From IMG/VR virus record IMGVR_UViG_3300048588_000052, positions 1-23,896 of that record: a DNA stretch of 23,896 bases; one strand, written 5' to 3'. Position 1 is the stretch's first letter. Every line of letters begins with the position of its first letter. This DNA is from a virus. Positions 7,534 through 17,393 of this stretch are shown one piece after another. The translations under genes were made by a program, and so were the position numbers. The notes below the pieces were generated by a model. That model was not told the DNA's origin, did not search any database, and was given only the letters and a program-made list of their open reading frames with translations.

Positions 7534-7994
7534 TGGACACCTGCCAAGCAGTATTTCTGCTCATCTGTGCGGCGAACGACGAGGCCGCGAATGACGCGCC
7601 CACCAGCCTTGTTGAACGCAGGGATACGATTGCAGGCAGCGTGGTAGTCTCCGGCATTCGCAAACGCCGCCACAGACGACTTGCAGAAGCCGCCAACGCC
7701 GATGTTGTAGCTGAGCGACAAAAAGGCGATGTAAGGCTTGATCGGCACCGCGTCCGGCTGCTTGAGGCAAGCCCGCATGCCGGTTTCGAACTCGACAAGG
7801 CGCTTGGCGAACATCTCGTCGCATTCGGCCTTGGTGAACTTCATCCCGGAGCGGATGCCCTTGGTTTCGCCATAGCATGCGGTCCAGACGCCAATCACAT
7901 CGGCATAGCTGACAAGCCGCAAGCCCTCGTACCCGCCAATGAGAGCCACGGCAGCGGCCATCGCGGCCCCGCCCTTCTTCAGCCTACTCGCCAT
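7530..7994 (-). CDS. SAR endolysin, T4-lysozyme-type (R21-like)
   Basis: This 154-residue protein is a phage lysozyme that cuts the glycan of peptidoglycan. The catalytic triad follows the T4/P21 pattern E-8-D-5-T: E23 in G-Y-E-G, D32 in Y-A-D-V and T38 in V-W-T-A-C-Y-G-E-T. Residues 6-21 (K-K-G-G-A-A-M-A-A-A-V-A-L-I-G-G) form a weakly hydrophobic Gly/Ala-rich segment after basic residues, as in signal-anchor-release endolysins, which wait tethered to the membrane until the potential collapses. Several cysteines (C40, C76, C104, C121, C149) could control activation. AGGAG lies 7 bases before ATG 7994. It overlaps the holin candidate upstream by 11 bases. Confidence 0.9.
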   Translation of the reverse strand: MASRLKKGGAAMAAAVALIGGYEGLRLVSYADVIGVWTACYGETKGIRSGMKFTKAECDEMFAKRLVEFETGMRACLKQPDAVPIKPYIAFLSLSYNIGVGGFCKSSVAAFANAGDYHAACNRIPAFNKAGGRVIRGLVVRRTDEQKYCLAGVQ

Positions 7995-8214
7995 CACGGA
8001 CTCCTGAAACGCGGTCCTGCGCCACCAGTCTCGCGATGAAGGCCATGCAGACACAAAGGCCGGACAGCACGGCAAATGTCGTGGGGGGTACGGGCAGGAT
8101 GCCATCCAGGAGCGGCAAGGCCACTTCGAGGCCGGACAGGATGCCGGCAAGCAGCAAAAGCCGCACAGACCATGCGTGTTTCAGCACAGCCCGCCAGTTT
8201 GAGATGAGTTTCAT
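7984..8214 (-). CDS. Two-span holin candidate (DUF7940-like)
   Basis: The 76-residue protein begins M-K-L-I-S-N-W-R-A-V-L-K-H-A-W-S-V-R and has two membrane spans (residues about 17-38 and 44-65) joined by a P-V-P-P-T-T loop, then a charged tail. I recall this family in alphaproteobacterial phages directly upstream of SAR endolysins; it has been described as holin-like. Two spans, size and position fit a class II holin or pinholin that releases the SAR enzyme. A perfect AGGAGG overlaps the stop codon of the upstream gene and lies 5-6 bases before the ATG, so expression should be strong. Confidence 0.78.
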   Translation of the reverse strand: MKLISNWRAVLKHAWSVRLLLLAGILSGLEVALPLLDGILPVPPTTFAVLSGLCVCMAFIARLVAQDRVSGVRDGE

Positions 8215-9695: not shown

Positions 9696-9725
9696 TAACC
9701 AAGCCAACCTTTGAAGGAGGTCAGA

Positions 9726-10304
9726 ATGGCTAGACCCAAGCGTATATGTTCCATTCCAGATTGCGGCAAGGCGCATAGCGGCCACGGTTATTGCCTCGAC
9801 CACTACAATCGATGGAAACGGTATGGAGACCCAACCGCTGGGGTCATCCCAAGATGGACAGCGCTGCGCTTCTACCAAGATACTGTGCTTGCGTACGATG
9901 GCGACGAATGCCTCATTTGGCCGTTTAGCACTACACGTGGTTACGGTCAGTTGCGCTACGAAGGCAGGCCACAAATCGTTTCTAGATTGGTGTGCATGGA
10001 AGCCCATGGCGAGCCTCCAGACGAAACCTATCAAGCCGCCCATTCCTGCGGGAAGGGCAATTTAGGATGCGTAGCAAAACGACATTTGAGCTGGAAAACC
10101 CAATCCGAGAACGAAGCAGATAAGAAGGAACACGGCACCGACAATCGCCGGGGCGGTGCCAAGTTGTCTGTACGGGAAGTTATCGCGATCAGACGACTGA
10201 AAGAGTTGACCGGACTAGCAAATTCTACAATAGCTACGTCTTTTGGAGTGGACCGCCGCGCTGTTGATAAAATCATCTCGCGCGAGACTTGGACTCAAGT
10301 CTAA
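9726..10304 (+). CDS. Free-standing HNH endonuclease with zinc finger and C-terminal HTH
   Basis: The 192-residue protein starts with a probable zinc-binding module (C8, C13, C23, H26; followed by Y-N-R-W-K-R-Y-G-D-P), common at the N-terminus of phage HNH proteins. The nuclease core is around S-R-L-V-C-M-E-A-H-G (86-95), A-A-H-S-C-G-K-G-N-L-G-C-V (104-116), H120 and N129. A C-terminal HTH-like module (146-192, K-L-S-V-R-E-V-I-A-I-R-R) resembles that of the other HNH protein in this window. AAGGAGG lies 5 bases before ATG 9726. The gene stands against the late operon, between tail fibre and the 714-residue ejection gene, and its stop codon overlaps that gene's stop. This is the pattern of a mobile homing endonuclease gene. 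Confidence 0.88.
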   Translation: MARPKRICSIPDCGKAHSGHGYCLDHYNRWKRYGDPTAGVIPRWTALRFYQDTVLAYDGDECLIWPFSTTRGYGQLRYEGRPQIVSRLVCMEAHGEPPDETYQAAHSCGKGNLGCVAKRHLSWKTQSENEADKKEHGTDNRRGGAKLSVREVIAIRRLKELTGLANSTIATSFGVDRRAVDKIISRETWTQV

Positions 10305-12445
10305 TAGAGACCTCCAAGGCCCTTGCCGATTGCTGCTGCGGCACCGGGCGAAATGCCCTTCATGCCGTCCATTGATCTGTTCGATTGAGTGCCGCCCAAG
10401 GCTCCCTTGGCCGTAGGCGCATTGGGGAAGCCAAGCCCGCCGACTGGAGACGGAGCGTTGATGACGCCGAATACCGGGCTGTTGAATGAAAGCATGCCCT
10501 GCTTGTTGCCGGTCAAAGCATCGAGCGGGTTCTTGCCCTTGGCGATGGAGCTCCCGAGAGCCGCGCCGATCAGGGAGCCGATAGGGCCGAGGGTGCTGCC
10601 GATTGCGCTGCCAACTGCACTCCCGACTACGCCGCGAGCGATGTTGCCTGTCTCGGTCTTGGCCGGCTGGATACCGAGAAAGCCCTTGGACTGTGTGACG
10701 CCCGGAGTGCCGAGAGGTCCGGAGATTGCCGATGGAGTCGGGGCAGATGGTGCTTTCGGCCCGAACGACACGCTAGAAAACCCGCTTGGGCTTGTCGTCG
10801 TCGTCACGCCGTATTGATTGGTGACGCTGATGTTTCCGAGCGCATCGCGGGACACCATGTTCTTGCCGGTGTTGTCCATCGCCTGCATGGCCGCGCCGCT
10901 ATACACGTCCATTGCCGTTGCGCGCGGGGCTGCTGGCATTGAAGGCCGAGAGGCAGGAGCCGAGACACGAGCAACGGGCGCGGGCGGTGCGGGCGGTGCC
11001 ACGACAGACGGCGGCATGAGCGTCGTCGGCTGGGGTGTGAATGTCTGTGTTGGTGCCGTGGGCGTTTTCGACACCAGCCCTGCGATTGCCGAAGTCGGGA
11101 CAGCCATGGACGGCGCGAATGCGGGCTTATTCATCGCCTGCAATGCAGTGGCCGGTGTGGGCGTCGTCGGACGGGCAGGCATGGAAACGGCAGGGGCCAG
11201 CCTCCCAACCTTGGCGGTGGTCATCGGATCGGGAGGCATGGACGCGGCCTGCGCCGCCGACACAACGCCGAAGCCGCTAGGCTGTGAAGGCGGTGTTACG
11301 TCATAAGCGAAACGGGCCGGATCGGGTGCGCGCGGCGCTGCCGGTGCCAATGCCATGCGTTCGACTTTGCCAACGGGAGCGGCTGCAAAGGCTGCGGGGG
11401 TTTCCGGGCGAGCCGTAGGCGTAGGAGCTGTCGTGCGCGGCGTTACGGCAAAGGTTCCAGCGCCATACATGTCCCGGATGGAGGCTTGCGCCCACCCCGG
11501 CAGCGACCCTATGTCTGCTTCGGAAACGTCGCCCGGCACACCGTCGAACTTGTTGATGCCGTTATAGCCTTGCGGACCCCATGCGGCGGGATTTGCGCGA
11601 GTGTCAACGTGCAGGCTACTCCCCGACGAATAGATGCCGATGCCCTTTGCGCCAGCCTCAATCGCGGTATCAATGATGGATTGCTTCTGCTCGTCGGTCA
11701 GTCCACGAACGTCGAGGTCAACGGCCTTGCCGACCATATGTTGCGACTTGCTTGCACCCTTGGCCGCTGCGTTCGTAGCGGCTGACCTGTAGCCGGAATT
11801 CACGCCTCCAATTGCTTGACCTGCTGAGGTCTTGGACAGCGCGTCCAGAACCTTGCCCACACTCGGATCAAGACCAACACGGCTATAGGACGCTAGCGGA
11901 CCAGTGCCTTTCAGGCCGTTCGGAGCCAACGCTTCCATGCCCTTCGGCGGGGATGGCGCAGCGCTTTTCATGCCATAAGCCTCAGGCGAAAGCATCGCCC
12001 GTGCCGCAGACTGCGGGGCCAACGGACCGGCAATGCTCGCCTTTGGTGTCACATAGCCAACAGCGGTCCGAATAGCCCTGTTCTGAGGATCATAGAAATA
12101 CTGGTGCCCGGTTGTAGCCGCCACCGGAGCGAGCCCAGAAGGCAGGTTCTTCGTTGCGTTCGGCGTGGCATAGAATGTGGCGTTGTGGACAGGGCCGAGC
12201 TTCTGGACGGTATCCCATGCTTTTTGAGCCAGCGAACGGTATGCAGAAGCGCCGGGAGGCAGACTTTTCCCGAACGCGCTGAACTGATTTGGTGCGCTGA
12301 CAATCGAGTGTGGTGTTTTTGCCGTTGCCGTCGCTCGGTTTGAGATGACCGATGCGATGCCCAGCATGTCTTGATATCGTTGGGCTTTGGTGCCTGAAAC
12401 GGCTTCGCCCAAGATCGTATCAATGACGGAATTGACTTTCGCCAC
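10301..12445 (-). CDS. Ejection protein with SleB-type and M15-type cell-wall hydrolase domains
   Basis: This 714-residue protein combines two peptidoglycan-cutting domains. Residues about 5-125 match the SleB/CwlJ hydrolase fold: E14 in I-L-G-E-A, the I-A-S-V-I-S-N-R helix, N53-Q-F-S-A and a C-terminal T-T-G-H-Q-Y-F-Y-D. Residues about 190-290 match an M15-type peptidase: S-G-Y-R-S at 217-221, H236 and D243 in S-Q-H-M-V-G-K-A-V-D, then S-L-H279-V-D-T-R. A Pro/Thr/Ala-rich linker (about 320-560) follows, then a Gly-zipper-like hydrophobic segment (604-636). As the last gene of the ejection-protein run, it probably travels in the virion and opens the wall and membrane during DNA entry. It ends against the HNH gene with a 4-base shared stop region. 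Confidence 0.85.
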   Translation of the reverse strand: MAKVNSVIDTILGEAVSGTKAQRYQDMLGIASVISNRATATAKTPHSIVSAPNQFSAFGKSLPPGASAYRSLAQKAWDTVQKLGPVHNATFYATPNATKNLPSGLAPVAATTGHQYFYDPQNRAIRTAVGYVTPKASIAGPLAPQSAARAMLSPEAYGMKSAAPSPPKGMEALAPNGLKGTGPLASYSRVGLDPSVGKVLDALSKTSAGQAIGGVNSGYRSAATNAAAKGASKSQHMVGKAVDLDVRGLTDEQKQSIIDTAIEAGAKGIGIYSSGSSLHVDTRANPAAWGPQGYNGINKFDGVPGDVSEADIGSLPGWAQASIRDMYGAGTFAVTPRTTAPTPTARPETPAAFAAAPVGKVERMALAPAAPRAPDPARFAYDVTPPSQPSGFGVVSAAQAASMPPDPMTTAKVGRLAPAVSMPARPTTPTPATALQAMNKPAFAPSMAVPTSAIAGLVSKTPTAPTQTFTPQPTTLMPPSVVAPPAPPAPVARVSAPASRPSMPAAPRATAMDVYSGAAMQAMDNTGKNMVSRDALGNISVTNQYGVTTTTSPSGFSSVSFGPKAPSAPTPSAISGPLGTPGVTQSKGFLGIQPAKTETGNIARGVVGSAVGSAIGSTLGPIGSLIGAALGSSIAKGKNPLDALTGNKQGMLSFNSPVFGVINAPSPVGGLGFPNAPTAKGALGGTQSNRSMDGMKGISPGAAAAIGKGLGGLY

Positions 12446-12489: not shown

Positions 12490-12774
12490 ATGAAAGCCGC
12501 GCTGATAGCCGCTTGCCTTTTGGCTTCATCAGGCCTTGCGACCGCCGAAACCATCAAGATTTCGCCGGAAGCCGCTGCCGAAAACGAAGTTATTTCCGCT
12601 CTTTATGAAGCCGATCTTGCCTGTACTCACGGCATGAACCATGACGGCGACAAACTATCCGACGCGCAAATTAAAGATGCCTGTGTTAATCAGGTTGCGC
12701 TCATCGCACAGATGAAAACTGACCTCGGCTACTGCTTCAATGCCGAATACACCGATTGGTGGAAGTGCAAGTGA
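12490..12774 (+). CDS. Secreted four-cysteine protein, possible moron gene
   Basis: The 94-residue product starts MKAALIAACLLASSGLATAE, a clear Sec signal peptide with probable cleavage after A19 (A-T-A|E). The mature part is small and helical, with four cysteines (C45, C65, C82, C93), enough for two disulphides in the periplasm, and a W-W-K-C-K end. GGAGA lies about 8 bases before the ATG; an upstream in-frame start (MLLETQ) would spoil the signal peptide. It is on the strand opposite to the virion genes around it and starts a three-gene run. No family was recognised. The layout fits lysogenic conversion or superinfection exclusion genes, but that is inference. Confidence 0.75.
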   Translation: MKAALIAACLLASSGLATAETIKISPEAAAENEVISALYEADLACTHGMNHDGDKLSDAQIKDACVNQVALIAQMKTDLGYCFNAEYTDWWKCK

Positions 12775-12992
12775 CTGACCCGTCAAAAGACATGTTCGAA
12801 CAGATCACCGGCAGGCCATATCATCCCAGCGACCAGATAGTGGGCGAATTGCGTTCGGTGCAGAACGCGATTTCAATGAACACAAAAGCTACTCAGTCCA
12901 CTAACGCGATTTTGGGCAAGATTTGCACCATGGCCACTATCTGTGCCGTTTCGGTTGTGGGCATCGCCATGCTCTTGTTCATGCGAGGCTGA
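12771..12992 (+). CDS. Tail-anchored small membrane protein, unknown
   Basis: I take GTG 12771 as start because it forms a GTGA overlap with the upstream stop and has GGAAG 6 bases before it; ATG 12756 would add five residues and a longer overlap. The 73-residue protein has a polar N-terminal half with a likely amphipathic helix (residues about 21-49, Q/N/S/T-rich: E-L-R-S-V-Q-N-A-I-S-M-N-T) and one C-terminal span (51-71, I-C-T-M-A-T-I-C-A-V-S-V-V-G-I-A-M-L-L). The cytoplasmic helix and tail anchor suggest an oligomer in the inner membrane. It is translated together with the secreted protein before it. Function unknown. Confidence 0.68.
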   Translation: MTDPSKDMFEQITGRPYHPSDQIVGELRSVQNAISMNTKATQSTNAILGKICTMATICAVSVVGIAMLLFMRG

Positions 12993-13241
12993 ATGAGTTA
13001 CTTCCCCTACCTCATCCTTGGCGTGTCGCTGGTTCTGTTCAACCATGAACTGCCACCGATGGATTGGCAGGATTACGTCGCCTTCGTCCTATTCTTTGCC
13101 CTGATCCATTGGTGCTGCAAAGACCGTGCTGCCACGGTTGACGGCGATGGCCATGAGAGCGCGCGTAAGAGCATCGCGTTTCGACTCGGCAAGAAGCTGA
13201 ATCGCATTCTTCATTATCGGCTGCGGAACACCGCCCGATGA
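12993..13241 (+). CDS. Two-span membrane protein, unknown
   Basis: The ATG follows the previous stop directly (TGAATG). The 82-residue product has spans at residues about 4-17 (F-P-Y-L-I-L-G-V-S-L-V-L-F) and 27-41 (D-Y-V-A-F-V-L-F-F-A-L-I-H-W), then a basic tail. The last 50 codons run antisense through the end of the ejection gene on the other strand (153 bases of overlap), so the basic tail may be a recent read-through extension. It is the last member of the + strand cassette. No family was recognised. Confidence 0.55.
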   Translation: MSYFPYLILGVSLVLFNHELPPMDWQDYVAFVLFFALIHWCCKDRAATVDGDGHESARKSIAFRLGKKLNRILHYRLRNTAR

Positions 13242-14765
13242 AATGAGGCGGACGAGTTCGCCAACCGACTTCTTGGCAAGGTGTTCTGCCGTCTTCTGTG
13301 CGCCATAGCCGGCAATCATTCCAGTGACTTGCAATGGGATGGATGCACCACCCGTACCAATGGCCGTAGCTGCCTGAATGCTAGATAGCAGCCGGCCACG
13401 CGGCATCAAGCCACCGACTGCGTGAGCTACACGCTGACCGGGAGAATAGCCCGCCGCTGAGCCCAAGGCTTTCATTTCAGCAGCAGTAAATCCGCGTGTC
13501 TTGGCCTCACTCTGCAACACCCGCTTCAACTGGCCCATTGTCGTGCGGCCTACGTCGCCGCTGATTTGGGCGTCTGCGTTCTGCTGCCCGCGCAAGATGG
13601 CTTTTTCGACGGTATCGAGCTTCATCGCACGGTGCCAATGGCCGCGAGCTTCTTTGATGGCCTCGGCAGCGGCTTTCGGGTTATTGCCCATCAGAACCAT
13701 GGACGGATCGGCAGCGTTCACCAATTCGTCAATCCGATTGATGATCTGGCTAACGGCAGCATTATTCGATTGCAAGCCCGGACGGTAGCCGTTTGCTGCA
13801 ATCTTGCGCAGCGTGTCTAAGCCTTCGAACGTGACATTGCCATTCCCGATCCTCGCTAGATAATCGAGAACAGGCTTCACTCCTGGTTCGTTGACATCGT
13901 GGTAGCCGCGCGCTGTGAGGTCTTGAATAACGTCGGAGCGCAGCTTGTTGACGCCGTTCTGGTTGAACATCACACCGGCATTTTCAGCACGCTTGTACGC
14001 AGCCCTCCCCAAGTCCTTGAGGTCATCGACGCCCATTTGCGGCGCTTTGGGGTTGAACTTGCCTGCAACCTTGCTGACACCGGCACTGATAGCCTCGCCT
14101 GCCAGATTGCCAAGCCCGCCACCCACAGCGCCAATGCCCGCGCCCGTCGTAATATCCTGATCGTTGCCAGCAGCGGTCAAGGCACCGTACCCGCCGCCCT
14201 CCGCAGCCATAAGGCCGGTGCGGGCGAGAACACCGGGCGCGCCAGTCATTGCGGCTGTTCCGAAGCGACCGGCGAGCGTAGCGCCCTTCCCTGCCAGTTT
14301 CATTGGAGTTGCGACAGCGCCGGCAATCTCCGCGCCTGTGCCGGCACCACGCGCCCTGTTTCGGGCTTCCTGCGTCTTGGTGCGGGCGTCTGCCAATTCC
14401 TGCTCATAGGTCTTGTCGGTGAACATGGAACGCGCGCCGGCCACGGCCTTATCGCCAAAGCCCATTGTTGCGCCGTTGGCGAACAGTTGCAGCGTGTCGC
14501 CCGCAGCCACTATCGGCTTCTGCCATTCGGGCAAGGCGTCGTATTGCGCGCGCTGCCGATCTGCAACTGGGTTGCCTTCCGGCCCCTTGTCCAGCGCCCG
14601 AGTCATGGCTGACAGTTCGGAAGCGGCCTGTGAGGCTTCCGGTGCCTGCTGCACGCCAAGGCTCTGCGCTATCTCATCGACGGTGGCGTTCTGCTGCTCG
14701 GGAGAGAGCGATAGAAAGCTGTCATCGACTTTGACGCGCCGGCCATTAATGTTGAGTGTCGCCAT
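13089..14765 (-). CDS. Internal virion / ejection protein
   Basis: The 558-residue protein begins M-A-T-L-N-I-N-G-R-R-V-K-V-D-D-S-F-L, then S-L-S-P-E-Q-Q, an N-terminal module (about 1-38) I know from large phage internal virion or injection proteins. Residues about 144-230 are rich in Gly and Ala in a zipper-like spacing (A-G-I-G-A-V-G-G-G-L-G-N-L-A-G), suited to membrane insertion; the remainder is helical (L-A-R-I-G-N-G, then many charged helices). It starts in a one-base TAATG overlap with the upstream gene and would leave the particle with the DNA, as P22 gp7/gp16/gp20 or T7 gp14-16 do. The function is inferred from layout and module. Confidence 0.72.
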   Translation of the reverse strand: MATLNINGRRVKVDDSFLSLSPEQQNATVDEIAQSLGVQQAPEASQAASELSAMTRALDKGPEGNPVADRQRAQYDALPEWQKPIVAAGDTLQLFANGATMGFGDKAVAGARSMFTDKTYEQELADARTKTQEARNRARGAGTGAEIAGAVATPMKLAGKGATLAGRFGTAAMTGAPGVLARTGLMAAEGGGYGALTAAGNDQDITTGAGIGAVGGGLGNLAGEAISAGVSKVAGKFNPKAPQMGVDDLKDLGRAAYKRAENAGVMFNQNGVNKLRSDVIQDLTARGYHDVNEPGVKPVLDYLARIGNGNVTFEGLDTLRKIAANGYRPGLQSNNAAVSQIINRIDELVNAADPSMVLMGNNPKAAAEAIKEARGHWHRAMKLDTVEKAILRGQQNADAQISGDVGRTTMGQLKRVLQSEAKTRGFTAAEMKALGSAAGYSPGQRVAHAVGGLMPRGRLLSSIQAATAIGTGGASIPLQVTGMIAGYGAQKTAEHLAKKSVGELVRLISSGGVPQPIMKNAIQLLAESKRDALTRALMAIAVNRGSTVFAAPMDQGKE

Positions 14766-15829
14766 TATGGTTCAACCGTCCAAGTGACGCCGGATTGTGT
14801 GCGGTTTCCACCCTGCGGAGCCGGTGCAGATTGATGAGGAAATCCGCCTTGATCCATCCCCTGCCGCCCCGCTTGAGCTTCCAGCTTACGCAAGCCCTGC
14901 TGTACGAAATAGTTGAAGTCATCCAGCGCCTGATTGAAGTCTTCCACCGTCTGAGCCTGCGATAGGCGGGCAAATGCTTCCTCGGCTTTCTTGCCTTCGT
15001 AATCGGTGATGGCACCGCCGCCCTTGAGCATCTGTCGGGCTTGCAGAAACGCACCGCCTTGAAGCTGGTTGATTTTGCCCTGAACACGCGCGGCGTCTGA
15101 CGATACGTTCGGTAGACGAGAGTCAACCGGCCCGAGCATATTCGGCAGATATGGGTCGCTTTTGAGTTCCTGTATCTGCCGATCAAGTTCCGTCGCCATC
15201 TGTGTAGCGCCGGGCAATGCCACCTGTGCCGCGCCCGTTCCCTTCCCGGCCTCGGTCCCCGCTGCCTTGTCAAAATTCACGTCATAAGGGCCAATCGCCT
15301 CGGCGCTGTCAGGCATTCCGGACAGAACGACCGTGCCATCCTTGCGCATCTGCCCAAGGACCGGCTTTCCCGTCTTCTTGTCCCTGAGCCATACAGGCGT
15401 AAGACCGGCCACACTATCGACACCGCCGCCCGGAGCCGAAACCCATTCGCCCGTATCGGTGTTGAACAGATTGCCGCCGCCAGCATTGATGAAGCCCTGC
15501 CCCTTCGGTTCCTTCGCATATCGCTGTTGCGTATAGGTCTGCCAAGCCTCGTTGACCGGCATGCCAGCCTGCACCATCTCGGCATATTCGGGCGCATTCT
15601 TGCGGAAGAAATCCAATGTGCGGTTCTTTCCAGCCGTCTGTGCCGCTGTCTGCCCGTAGGCTGAGAAAGCATTGGCGAAGTTCTGGCCGTTGCCCTGCTG
15701 ACCCATGAGAGCCGCTGCGATAGGCATGGCGTTTTCAGGCGCAAGAAGTTGCTGGAGAAAGCCGCCACCTTGAGGCTGGGCCTGCTGCGGCACCTGCGCC
15801 TGTTGCTGCCCGAAATTGAACATCGGCAT
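14765..15829 (-). CDS. Virion/ejection protein with conserved helical module
   Basis: A 354-residue protein with a Gln-rich start (F-G-Q-Q-Q-A-Q-V-P-Q-Q-A-Q-P), a central part with glycine loops, and a conserved helical module at residues about 253-322 (I-N-Q-L-Q-G-G-A-F-L-Q-A-R-Q-M-L-K-G-G-G, then I-T-D-Y-E-G and A-R-L-S-Q-A-Q). That module occurs in many phage virion proteins next to ejection genes. The ATG at 15829 has AGGAG 6 bases upstream. Lack of signal peptide and the position between two other ejection candidates suggest an internal virion protein. Confidence 0.75.
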   Translation of the reverse strand: MPMFNFGQQQAQVPQQAQPQGGGFLQQLLAPENAMPIAAALMGQQGNGQNFANAFSAYGQTAAQTAGKNRTLDFFRKNAPEYAEMVQAGMPVNEAWQTYTQQRYAKEPKGQGFINAGGGNLFNTDTGEWVSAPGGGVDSVAGLTPVWLRDKKTGKPVLGQMRKDGTVVLSGMPDSAEAIGPYDVNFDKAAGTEAGKGTGAAQVALPGATQMATELDRQIQELKSDPYLPNMLGPVDSRLPNVSSDAARVQGKINQLQGGAFLQARQMLKGGGAITDYEGKKAEEAFARLSQAQTVEDFNQALDDFNYFVQQGLRKLEAQAGRQGMDQGGFPHQSAPAPQGGNRTQSGVTWTVEP

Positions 15830-15838
15830 TGGCGTCTC

Positions 15839-16159
15839 CTACCTGTTGATTCCGCCGTTCGGATCGCGGCGCGTACCGCCACTGGCAACGGGCCTCGGGC
15901 TGGCCGCAGGCGTCGTTGTGGTTGGGCGCGGCGACGTCGTAGCTGCGGGCTGCGGGCTGTAATCCGGCAATTCCATCGGCTTGTAGTACTGATTGAGCAG
16001 GGCGAGGATATCCGGCTGGGACTGGCCATATCCAGCCGCCAATTGGGCAGAGAGCGCATCGAGTTGGCCGGGCATGGCCGCAGGGACCGTCATTGTCGGG
16101 CGCGTGGTCGCCGCTGGTGTGGTCGCTGCCGGTGCTGCTGATTTTGAACTGCCGCCCAT
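15839..16159 (-). CDS. Small Pro/Thr-rich virion protein
   Basis: The 106-residue product is low in complexity: Ala/Pro/Thr-rich ends around a short ordered centre (P-G-Q-L-D-A-L-S-A-Q-L-A-A-G-Y-G, then I-L-A-L-L-N-Q-Y-Y-K-P). It begins M-G-G-S-S-K, nearly the same start as the gene just upstream (M-G-G-S-N-K). The start overlaps the upstream stop by one base (TGATG). A flexible internal virion component is likely from position. No family was recognised. Confidence 0.65.
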   Translation of the reverse strand: MGGSSKSAAPAATTPAATTRPTMTVPAAMPGQLDALSAQLAAGYGQSQPDILALLNQYYKPMELPDYSPQPAATTSPRPTTTTPAASPRPVASGGTRRDPNGGINR

Positions 16160-16989
16160 CAGAGTTTGCCCCCGGAATTGGCAAGGCTGGCTGCGCCAAG
16201 CCCCGCGCCAGCAATGTTCGAGAATGTGTTGCTAGGACCCTGTGCCGTCTGCGTGCCGGTCGAGTAGGCTCCCGCTCCATTGGCCGCAGCAAGGAGTGCC
16301 TGGATATTGGCCAGAGGGGCGTTCTGCGCTTCGTTGGCAATCCGAAGCTGGTCGTTGAGTGTTCTGCCGTAAAGGTCTTCGGACATCGAACCGAGGCCCA
16401 TGAGGACGTTCGATGGAGCCTGTGCCGCGTCGAAAGCAGACACCATGTTGCCTTGTCCGGTCTGTCCAGCATTGAACAACTGCTGTTGCGCATTGTCCTT
16501 TCGAGACTGAAAATTCTGATACTGCCGTGCGCCGAGGTCGCCAAGCTCGCGGGTCATGACCCCTTCATGCGTTCCAGACGCGTACCGGCCCAAGCCTGCC
16601 GCGTTCTGATTGACGGCGTTTTGCGTCTTGTCGAATACCTGCTGGAAGCCGGGATCAGAATTGATGTCGAACGCGCCGGTCGCGGTGTTCCTGATGCCTT
16701 CAAGCGCTGTCTGCTGGTCGGCATTGTAGCCGCCGTTATCAATGATGCCCTGCAACTGTCCGGAGAGGCCATTCCCACCAATATTGTCGTTGGCGAGGCC
16801 CTGTAGCGCGCCCATTCCCTGCGTCGTCTGCTGGGAGAAGGGAACGACGGTTGACATGGTGTTTGGTTTGACCAATCCGCCTGCATTGTACTGCTTCAAG
16901 GCATCGCCCATGCCCTTATCGAGCAGGGGTTGAGCAGCCTTGTAGGGCGTGTTCGTGCTGGTGGTTGTGGTCTTGTTGCTACCGCCCAT
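16159..16989 (-). CDS. Virion/ejection protein, Gln/Asn/Gly-rich
   Basis: I start this 276-residue protein at ATG 16989, which overlaps the upstream stop (TAATG); the frame is open further upstream but that part is another frame of the GNAT-like gene. It begins M-G-G-S-N-K-T-T-T-T, has a helical, Gln- and Asn-rich body with phrases G-R-Y-A-S-G-T-H-E-G-V-M-T-R-E-L-G and R-Q-Y-Q-N-F-Q-S-R, and ends A-S-L-A-N-S-G-G-K-L. Proteins of this pattern, often with R-Y-x-S-G-x-x, lie upstream of ejection proteins in podovirus genomes. A role in the internal or tail part of the virion is inferred. Confidence 0.73.
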   Translation of the reverse strand: MGGSNKTTTTSTNTPYKAAQPLLDKGMGDALKQYNAGGLVKPNTMSTVVPFSQQTTQGMGALQGLANDNIGGNGLSGQLQGIIDNGGYNADQQTALEGIRNTATGAFDINSDPGFQQVFDKTQNAVNQNAAGLGRYASGTHEGVMTRELGDLGARQYQNFQSRKDNAQQQLFNAGQTGQGNMVSAFDAAQAPSNVLMGLGSMSEDLYGRTLNDQLRIANEAQNAPLANIQALLAAANGAGAYSTGTQTAQGPSNTFSNIAGAGLGAASLANSGGKL

Positions 16990-17393
16990 TAGATTCGTTC
17001 CTCGTAGAGCGTCCGAAGCGGTTTCGCCTCGGGGAAAATCTTCTTCCAGCCATCGCGGCCTTCCGCGACCAACGAAGTCGCGCCGCAATTCACTGCTGCC
17101 TGCTTCACCCTTTCGTGAAGTTCCGGCATCCACTGGTCCATCTGGACGCCATAGAGAGCCAGGCACCGGAATTTCCCGCCTGACCGCCAGAGTTCCGGCT
17201 TCCAGACAGTCGCAGCGACCACCTTCTGATCGTCGTGGACCACGAACAGGAAGCAGTGCCCGGCGCGGCACCCCTGCCAGAGTTCACCCACGGTCAGATC
17301 GCCGCCGAACCTGTCCGAAGCTCTCTGAAACCCGTCCTTGACGCTTGGCCACACCCCGTCCACGAGATGCAGTGGAACCAGCGTTACGTTCAT
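16989..17393 (-). CDS. GNAT-like phage protein (T7 gp13-type)
   Basis: The 134-residue protein resembles the acetyltransferase-fold phage proteins grouped with T7 gp13. After a start with V-T-L-V-P-L it has E-L-W-Q-G-C-R-A-G-H-C-F-L-F-V-V (residues about 37-52), a V-V-A-A-T-V-W strand, and a central C-L-A-L-Y-G-V-Q-M-D-Q-W-M strand-helix followed by E-R-V-K-Q-A-A. The C-terminus (G-R-D-G-W-K-K-I-F-P-E-A, then R-T-L-Y-E-E) is typical of this group. In T7, gp13 is needed for virion assembly; enzyme activity has not been shown. The gene sits, as in T7-like phages, just before the ejection proteins. Both ends overlap neighbours. Confidence 0.75.
   Translation of the reverse strand: MNVTLVPLHLVDGVWPSVKDGFQRASDRFGGDLTVGELWQGCRAGHCFLFVVHDDQKVVAATVWKPELWRSGGKFRCLALYGVQMDQWMPELHERVKQAAVNCGATSLVAEGRDGWKKIFPEAKPLRTLYEERI

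Follow-up and report, generated by a model that had tools for sequence, protein, structure and literature searches.

The window, by which we mean the whole 23,896 bp IMG/VR fragment, comes from a P22-type podophage of rhizobial hosts, and its relatives are temperate alphaproteobacterial podophages. An integrase scored above cut-off in 5/8 records of relatives, one of them the contig with the Mesorhizobium sp. Root157 prophage; none is present in the window, which is a fragment. Early genes lie on the + strand and late genes on the - strand, the latter encoding the major head protein, scaffold, other virion structural proteins, three ejection-type proteins, a cell-wall hydrolase and lysis proteins. 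One ejection-type gene (16159-17271, -) belongs to the DNA ejection protein family phrog_4287, and that at 14765-15829 (-) is of the P22 gp20 type, matching phrog_2534 as P22 gp20 does. The second ejection gene (13089-14765, -) stands in the position of P22 gene 16 and its relatives are annotated as injection or structural proteins. As hhalign gave no similarity between its product and P22 gp16, its equivalence to gene 16 rests on position, the gp20-type neighbour and the annotation of relatives. A single genome scan for relatives of this ejection protein recovered only the Root157 prophage, and a scan with the phiGT1 ejection protein as query gave no matches. IMGVR_UViG_3300048591_000036 (15,488 bp) is 100% identical to the window from position 12648 onward over the 6124 bases compared and should reach past its right end. 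Three loci (L002, L003 and L013) are the same virus as the window (100% identical where compared) and are not counted as independent evidence.

Three coupled genes on the + strand interrupt the late operon, and the frames proposed for them by an earlier sequence-only reading were confirmed, starts and stops included. Gene 1 (12490-12774, ATG 12490 to TGA 12774; 94 aa) follows a Shine-Dalgarno-like GGAGA. Gene 2 (12771-12992, GTG 12771 to TGA 12992; 73 aa) has a start that overlaps the gene 1 stop (GTGA), and gene 3 (12993-13241, ATG 12993 to TGA 13241; 82 aa) begins directly after the gene 2 stop (TGAATG). A predicted signal peptide in gene 1 and predicted transmembrane segments bear out the description of a reverse-oriented cassette of envelope genes. 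The same reading had placed the cassette between two ejection genes of the - strand. The gene order is as described and 13089-14765 is indeed an ejection gene; the gene on the other side (10301-12445, -), which starts 45 bp from gene 1 and is divergent from it, is a virion-type late gene with cell-wall hydrolase (SleB) and M15 peptidase domains. Nor does gene 3 lie cleanly between its neighbours, as 153 bp of it overlap the 3' end of the ejection gene in antisense.

The hydrolase module beyond the cassette (10301-12445 and the next genes of relatives) is freely swapped, with SleB/M15, lysozyme-like and other N-termini. A second reverse-oriented gene within the late operon (9711-10304, +) encodes an HNH endonuclease; its third-position GC of 0.54 is below that of its neighbours and it is likely to be a recent mobile insertion. 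The three genes cannot be read as a holin/spanin lysis cassette: the holin (7984-8214, -) and the other lysis genes lie on the opposite strand at a distance of about 4-6 kb.

Gene 1 encodes a protein with a predicted N-terminal signal peptide and four cysteines. The 75 aa mature form is acidic (13 D+E versus 6 K+R) and its AF2 model consists of two helices and a beta hairpin, with a block-mean pLDDT of at least 90 over residues 31-80. Assignment to a fold was abandoned because the matches to this confident two-helix model are generic and point to no family, the best being VIA with Z 6.0, a value common for helical proteins. Searches across the PDB gave no significant sequence or fold match for gene 1. 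A homologue in L011 (6976-7227, -) has 37% identity, and since it retains all four cysteines, gene 1 can be accepted as a real gene on comparative grounds. Among 397 genomes of the order, gene 1 gave only weak matches in long frames, taken as chance. The product of gene 2 has one predicted C-terminal transmembrane segment and is of the tail-anchored type. Its sole relative found is the same virus in another assembly, and it is probably a gene, judging from its coupling and transmembrane segment. The observation that none of the three matches a known family stands: genes 2 and 3 had no match in PHROG, where gene 1 had just weak matches to families of unknown function, and neither the defence library nor the other searches gave a match for the cassette.

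Gene 3 is the member that recurs. Its AF2 model contains helices at residues 4-17, 25-43 and 61-78 with low overall confidence (pLDDT 64). The first two are predicted transmembrane helices, and the third is basic and amphipathic, with a moment reached by 2.4% of shuffles. The family has the conserved core DWxDYxxF and is found inverted at the same site in about a dozen distinct phages and prophages, so that conserved frames are present in related phages, as the sequence-only reading would have it. Its members are found at the equivalent place and in the same orientation in the window, L004, L005/L091 (the Root157 prophage), L011, L014, L015, L018, L022, L121, RHph_I1_23 and L125-L130; among the 397 genomes scanned, only that of Root157 carries it. 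In long forms the basic C-terminal helix is encoded over the ejection gene, while short forms end near the stop codon of that gene; the two are homologous (hhalign 97%, E 1.7e-11). The short form has a dN/dS of 0.03-0.13, indicating strong purifying selection, and gene 3 is, from its pattern of conservation, a real gene.

The overlap in the window (13089-13241) encodes the C-terminal tail of gene 3 on the + strand and the C-terminus of the ejection protein on the - strand. Synonymous change in the ejection gene is suppressed there, pooled pS being 0.39, whereas the lowest of 99 windows from the gene body has 0.54; the suppression is clear in four sequences and weak or absent in pairs with L015. 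From this suppression it follows that both strands code in the overlap, with the antisense frame under selection as well. Across loci, the overlap of the inverted gene with the ejection gene ranges from 3 to 182 nt.

The position and orientation of the cassette are those of P22 sieA, a gene whose product blocks DNA injection and which lies antisense at 13336-13830 directly after gene 16 (end 13313; sieA end 13336; no overlap). All sieA genes examined in detail are at this place after gene 16 (PMC10883804). By mechanical count, an inverted ORF with a transmembrane segment follows the ejection gene in 24/35 loci, compared with 58/269 other late-gene junctions of the same loci (Fisher p 5e-8, only a guide since the loci share descent and are not fully independent). 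The figure of 24 is an undercount, as homology places members of the gene 3 family in L012, L009, L019, L023 and L024 too. Other small inverted membrane ORFs at the site occur in RHph_N3_2, phiGT1, pCB2047-C and EBPR podovirus 2. Unannotated inverted membrane frames were located in L009 (11106-11279, -), L006 (10631-10816, -) and L008 (10375-10731, -); the phages are RHph_I1_23, RHph_N3_2 and Ochrobactrum phage OH. A note in the phiGT1 GenBank record points out that closely related phages have small inverted frames at this site; neither that record nor the literature searched gives them a function.

The partners of gene 3 vary from locus to locus. L011 has a gene 1 homologue, a lipoprotein gene and a gene 3 homologue, coupled by start-stop overlaps, and L005 has a lipoprotein gene and gene 3. 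A four-gene form in L121 (2882-4345, +) encodes a secreted protein unlike gene 1, a membrane-anchored four-cysteine protein (no similarity to gene 1 by hhalign), a soluble frame and gene 3. In RHph_I1_23 and most short-form loci, inspection of the frames showed gene 3 by itself. NYA-2014a has a cysteine-containing frame, for a secreted protein or a lipoprotein, and a membrane frame of 48 aa, both unrelated to the genes of the window. In L126/L128 (2676-3995, +), more reverse-oriented frames fill a gap of about 1.5 kb between the short gene 3 and the next late gene; one looks like a helix-turn-helix regulator and recalls the P22 immI region beside sieA. On sequence comparison, gene 3 is the constant part of the cassettes, a predicted inner-membrane protein beside the ejection gene, and its partners appear exchangeable. 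Co-occurrence elsewhere thus extends to genes 1 and 3, which recur in the coupled three-gene cassette of L011, and not to gene 2, which is absent outside the same virus. A fixed complex of the three proteins, as once suggested, finds no support, given the conservation of gene 3 alone, the lack of conservation of gene 2 and the variety of upstream partners.

Which type of inverted gene a locus has follows the C-terminal region of its ejection protein and not the next late gene. When 18 loci were grouped by inverted-gene type (long gene 3, short gene 3 and RHph_N3_2 type), likeness over the C-terminal 200 aa of the ejection protein was 0.60 for the same type and 0.07 for different types (highest 0.17; 0/2000 permutations). 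For the next late gene the values were 0.18 and 0.12 (182/2000 permutations), and the next late genes of RHph_I1_23 (short gene 3) and L026 (N3_2 type) are 0.99 alike. The ejection proteins of L024 and L086 are 0.69 alike at the N-terminus and 0.04 at the C-terminus, and their inverted genes differ. Escape mutations from SieA map to the C-terminal regions of gp16 and gp20 (PMC10883804). Co-inheritance fits a blocker matched to its target; it is support and not proof, because the overlap could tie the genes physically and because SieA itself is not closely matched. As SieA works against quite different ejection proteins (PMC10883804), the SieA model does not require tight matching of the C-terminus.

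By analogy, we put at about even the chance that this is a superinfection-exclusion locus at the sieA site, built from proteins unrelated to SieA, with gene 3 as the working part and genes 1 and 2 as accessories. Superinfection exclusion or host benefit had been proposed from the sequence; the sieA-like position and orientation and the integrases of relatives agree with the former, and the function is one that we infer. Gene 3 would be made from the prophage, as a small hairpin protein of the inner membrane whose cytoplasmic tail is basic. It may act on the conduit that the ejection proteins of an incoming related phage form, hindering its assembly or function; the ejection protein encoded by 13089-14765 is the probable target, and with the conduit spoiled the incoming DNA would fail to cross the inner membrane. 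Gene 1 may act in the periplasm, where its target could be the conduit or else the cell-wall hydrolase of the virion (T4 Spackle acts likewise on gp5 lysozyme), and gene 2 may be an inner-membrane partner; both would be exchangeable. Late transcription of the - strand operon would traverse the cassette in antisense, a circumstance that would favour expression in the lysogen. The cassette was also thought to have its own expression signals, but a promoter scan of it found no promoter-like site, a negative of little weight when the host is alphaproteobacterial. A bolder form of the exclusion reading, which we consider doubtful, is a target-matched device spanning the envelope, in which secreted, tail-anchored and inner-membrane proteins would act together, the blocker would be encoded antisense over its target gene, and blocker and target C-terminus would be exchanged as a unit among rhizobial podophages.

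It is rather unlikely that the inverted membrane protein instead helps or times the phage's own cycle (ejection, assembly, membrane state or lysis inhibition). Conservation as a unit with the ejection C-terminus would be expected of a helper of that protein too, and one carrier of an inverted gene here, phiGT1, has been described as lytic (PMC10386132). However, the orientation opposes the late operon, whose transcription would make antisense RNA of the gene, the lysis genes are elsewhere, and the type of protein differs from phage to phage, as is not expected of a core function. Distinctly unlikely is lysogenic conversion without exclusion, whereby the cassette would alter the lysogen's envelope to the benefit of the host (stress, colonisation or predation). 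The variable secreted and lipoprotein partners in temperate relatives (L011, L005 and L121) are in keeping with such a role; yet the conserved member is a predicted inner-membrane protein whose type tracks the ejection protein, which host benefit would not require. We think it very unlikely that the inverted gene is only a moron-type passenger, co-inherited through its antisense overlap and without functional meaning. The overlap does join the two genes and SieA is not tightly matched to ejection proteins (PMC10883804), but the opposite neighbour, which in many loci is about equally close, is not co-inherited; moreover, linkage speaks to coupling and not to function. That these are not genes at all, but antisense frames kept open by conservation of the ejection gene, accords with the overlap of gene 3 and the uniqueness of gene 2 but is close to untenable, being largely refuted for genes 3 and 1 by the short homologues almost wholly outside the ejection gene with their low dN/dS, the suppressed synonymous change and the cysteine pattern kept in L011.

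The site marks a place in podophage genomes at which to seek unannotated exclusion candidates; RHph_I1_23, RHph_N3_2 and Ochrobactrum phage OH each have an unannotated frame of this kind. PMC10883804 leaves open how SieA can act on ejection proteins that differ so much. The present set offers many natural pairs of small inverted membrane protein and ejection C-terminus, some of which share N-terminal parts and swap C-terminal ones (L024/L086), making matching testable.

Among known exclusion systems, T4 Imm and Spackle are two products that jointly exclude superinfecting phage (PMC7677548). Spackle is a small, secreted, helical protein with one disulfide and a mature length of 75 aa (PMC7677548), the length of mature gene 1; it is a helical bundle, whereas gene 1 has four cysteines and a predicted beta hairpin. 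Imm is set beside the cassette by description, and both T4 genes are early genes of a lytic myovirus, unlike the cassette. The HK97 gp15 superinfection exclusion moron is reported to block DNA injection, as cited in PMC10883804. Like gene 3 it is a small protein from the late region, but its gene shares the strand of the late genes and stands between tail genes. Gene 3 has no similarity to gp15 (phrog_5031, which gp15 itself matches), and the gene 3 family has none to SieA (hhalign probability 0.2; as a control, P22 SieA matches phrog_7745 at 9e-109); direct homology to either was rejected on this ground. phiGT1_20 and the other small inverted frames have the cassette's position and orientation but are of another protein type. 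P22 SieA (phrog_7745) is longer, with 162-164 aa and three spans compared with 82 aa and two predicted spans, and sieA is a single gene that does not overlap gene 16, whereas here a multi-gene cassette overlaps the ejection gene. The two loci are nevertheless alike in that a temperate podophage has, immediately behind its last ejection gene and antisense to it, a gene for a small protein of the inner membrane (by prediction in the case of gene 3), and in both cases several barely related sequence types occupy one site. What would be new is this analogy to SieA by position with unrelated proteins, in multi-gene form and with dual coding over the likely target.
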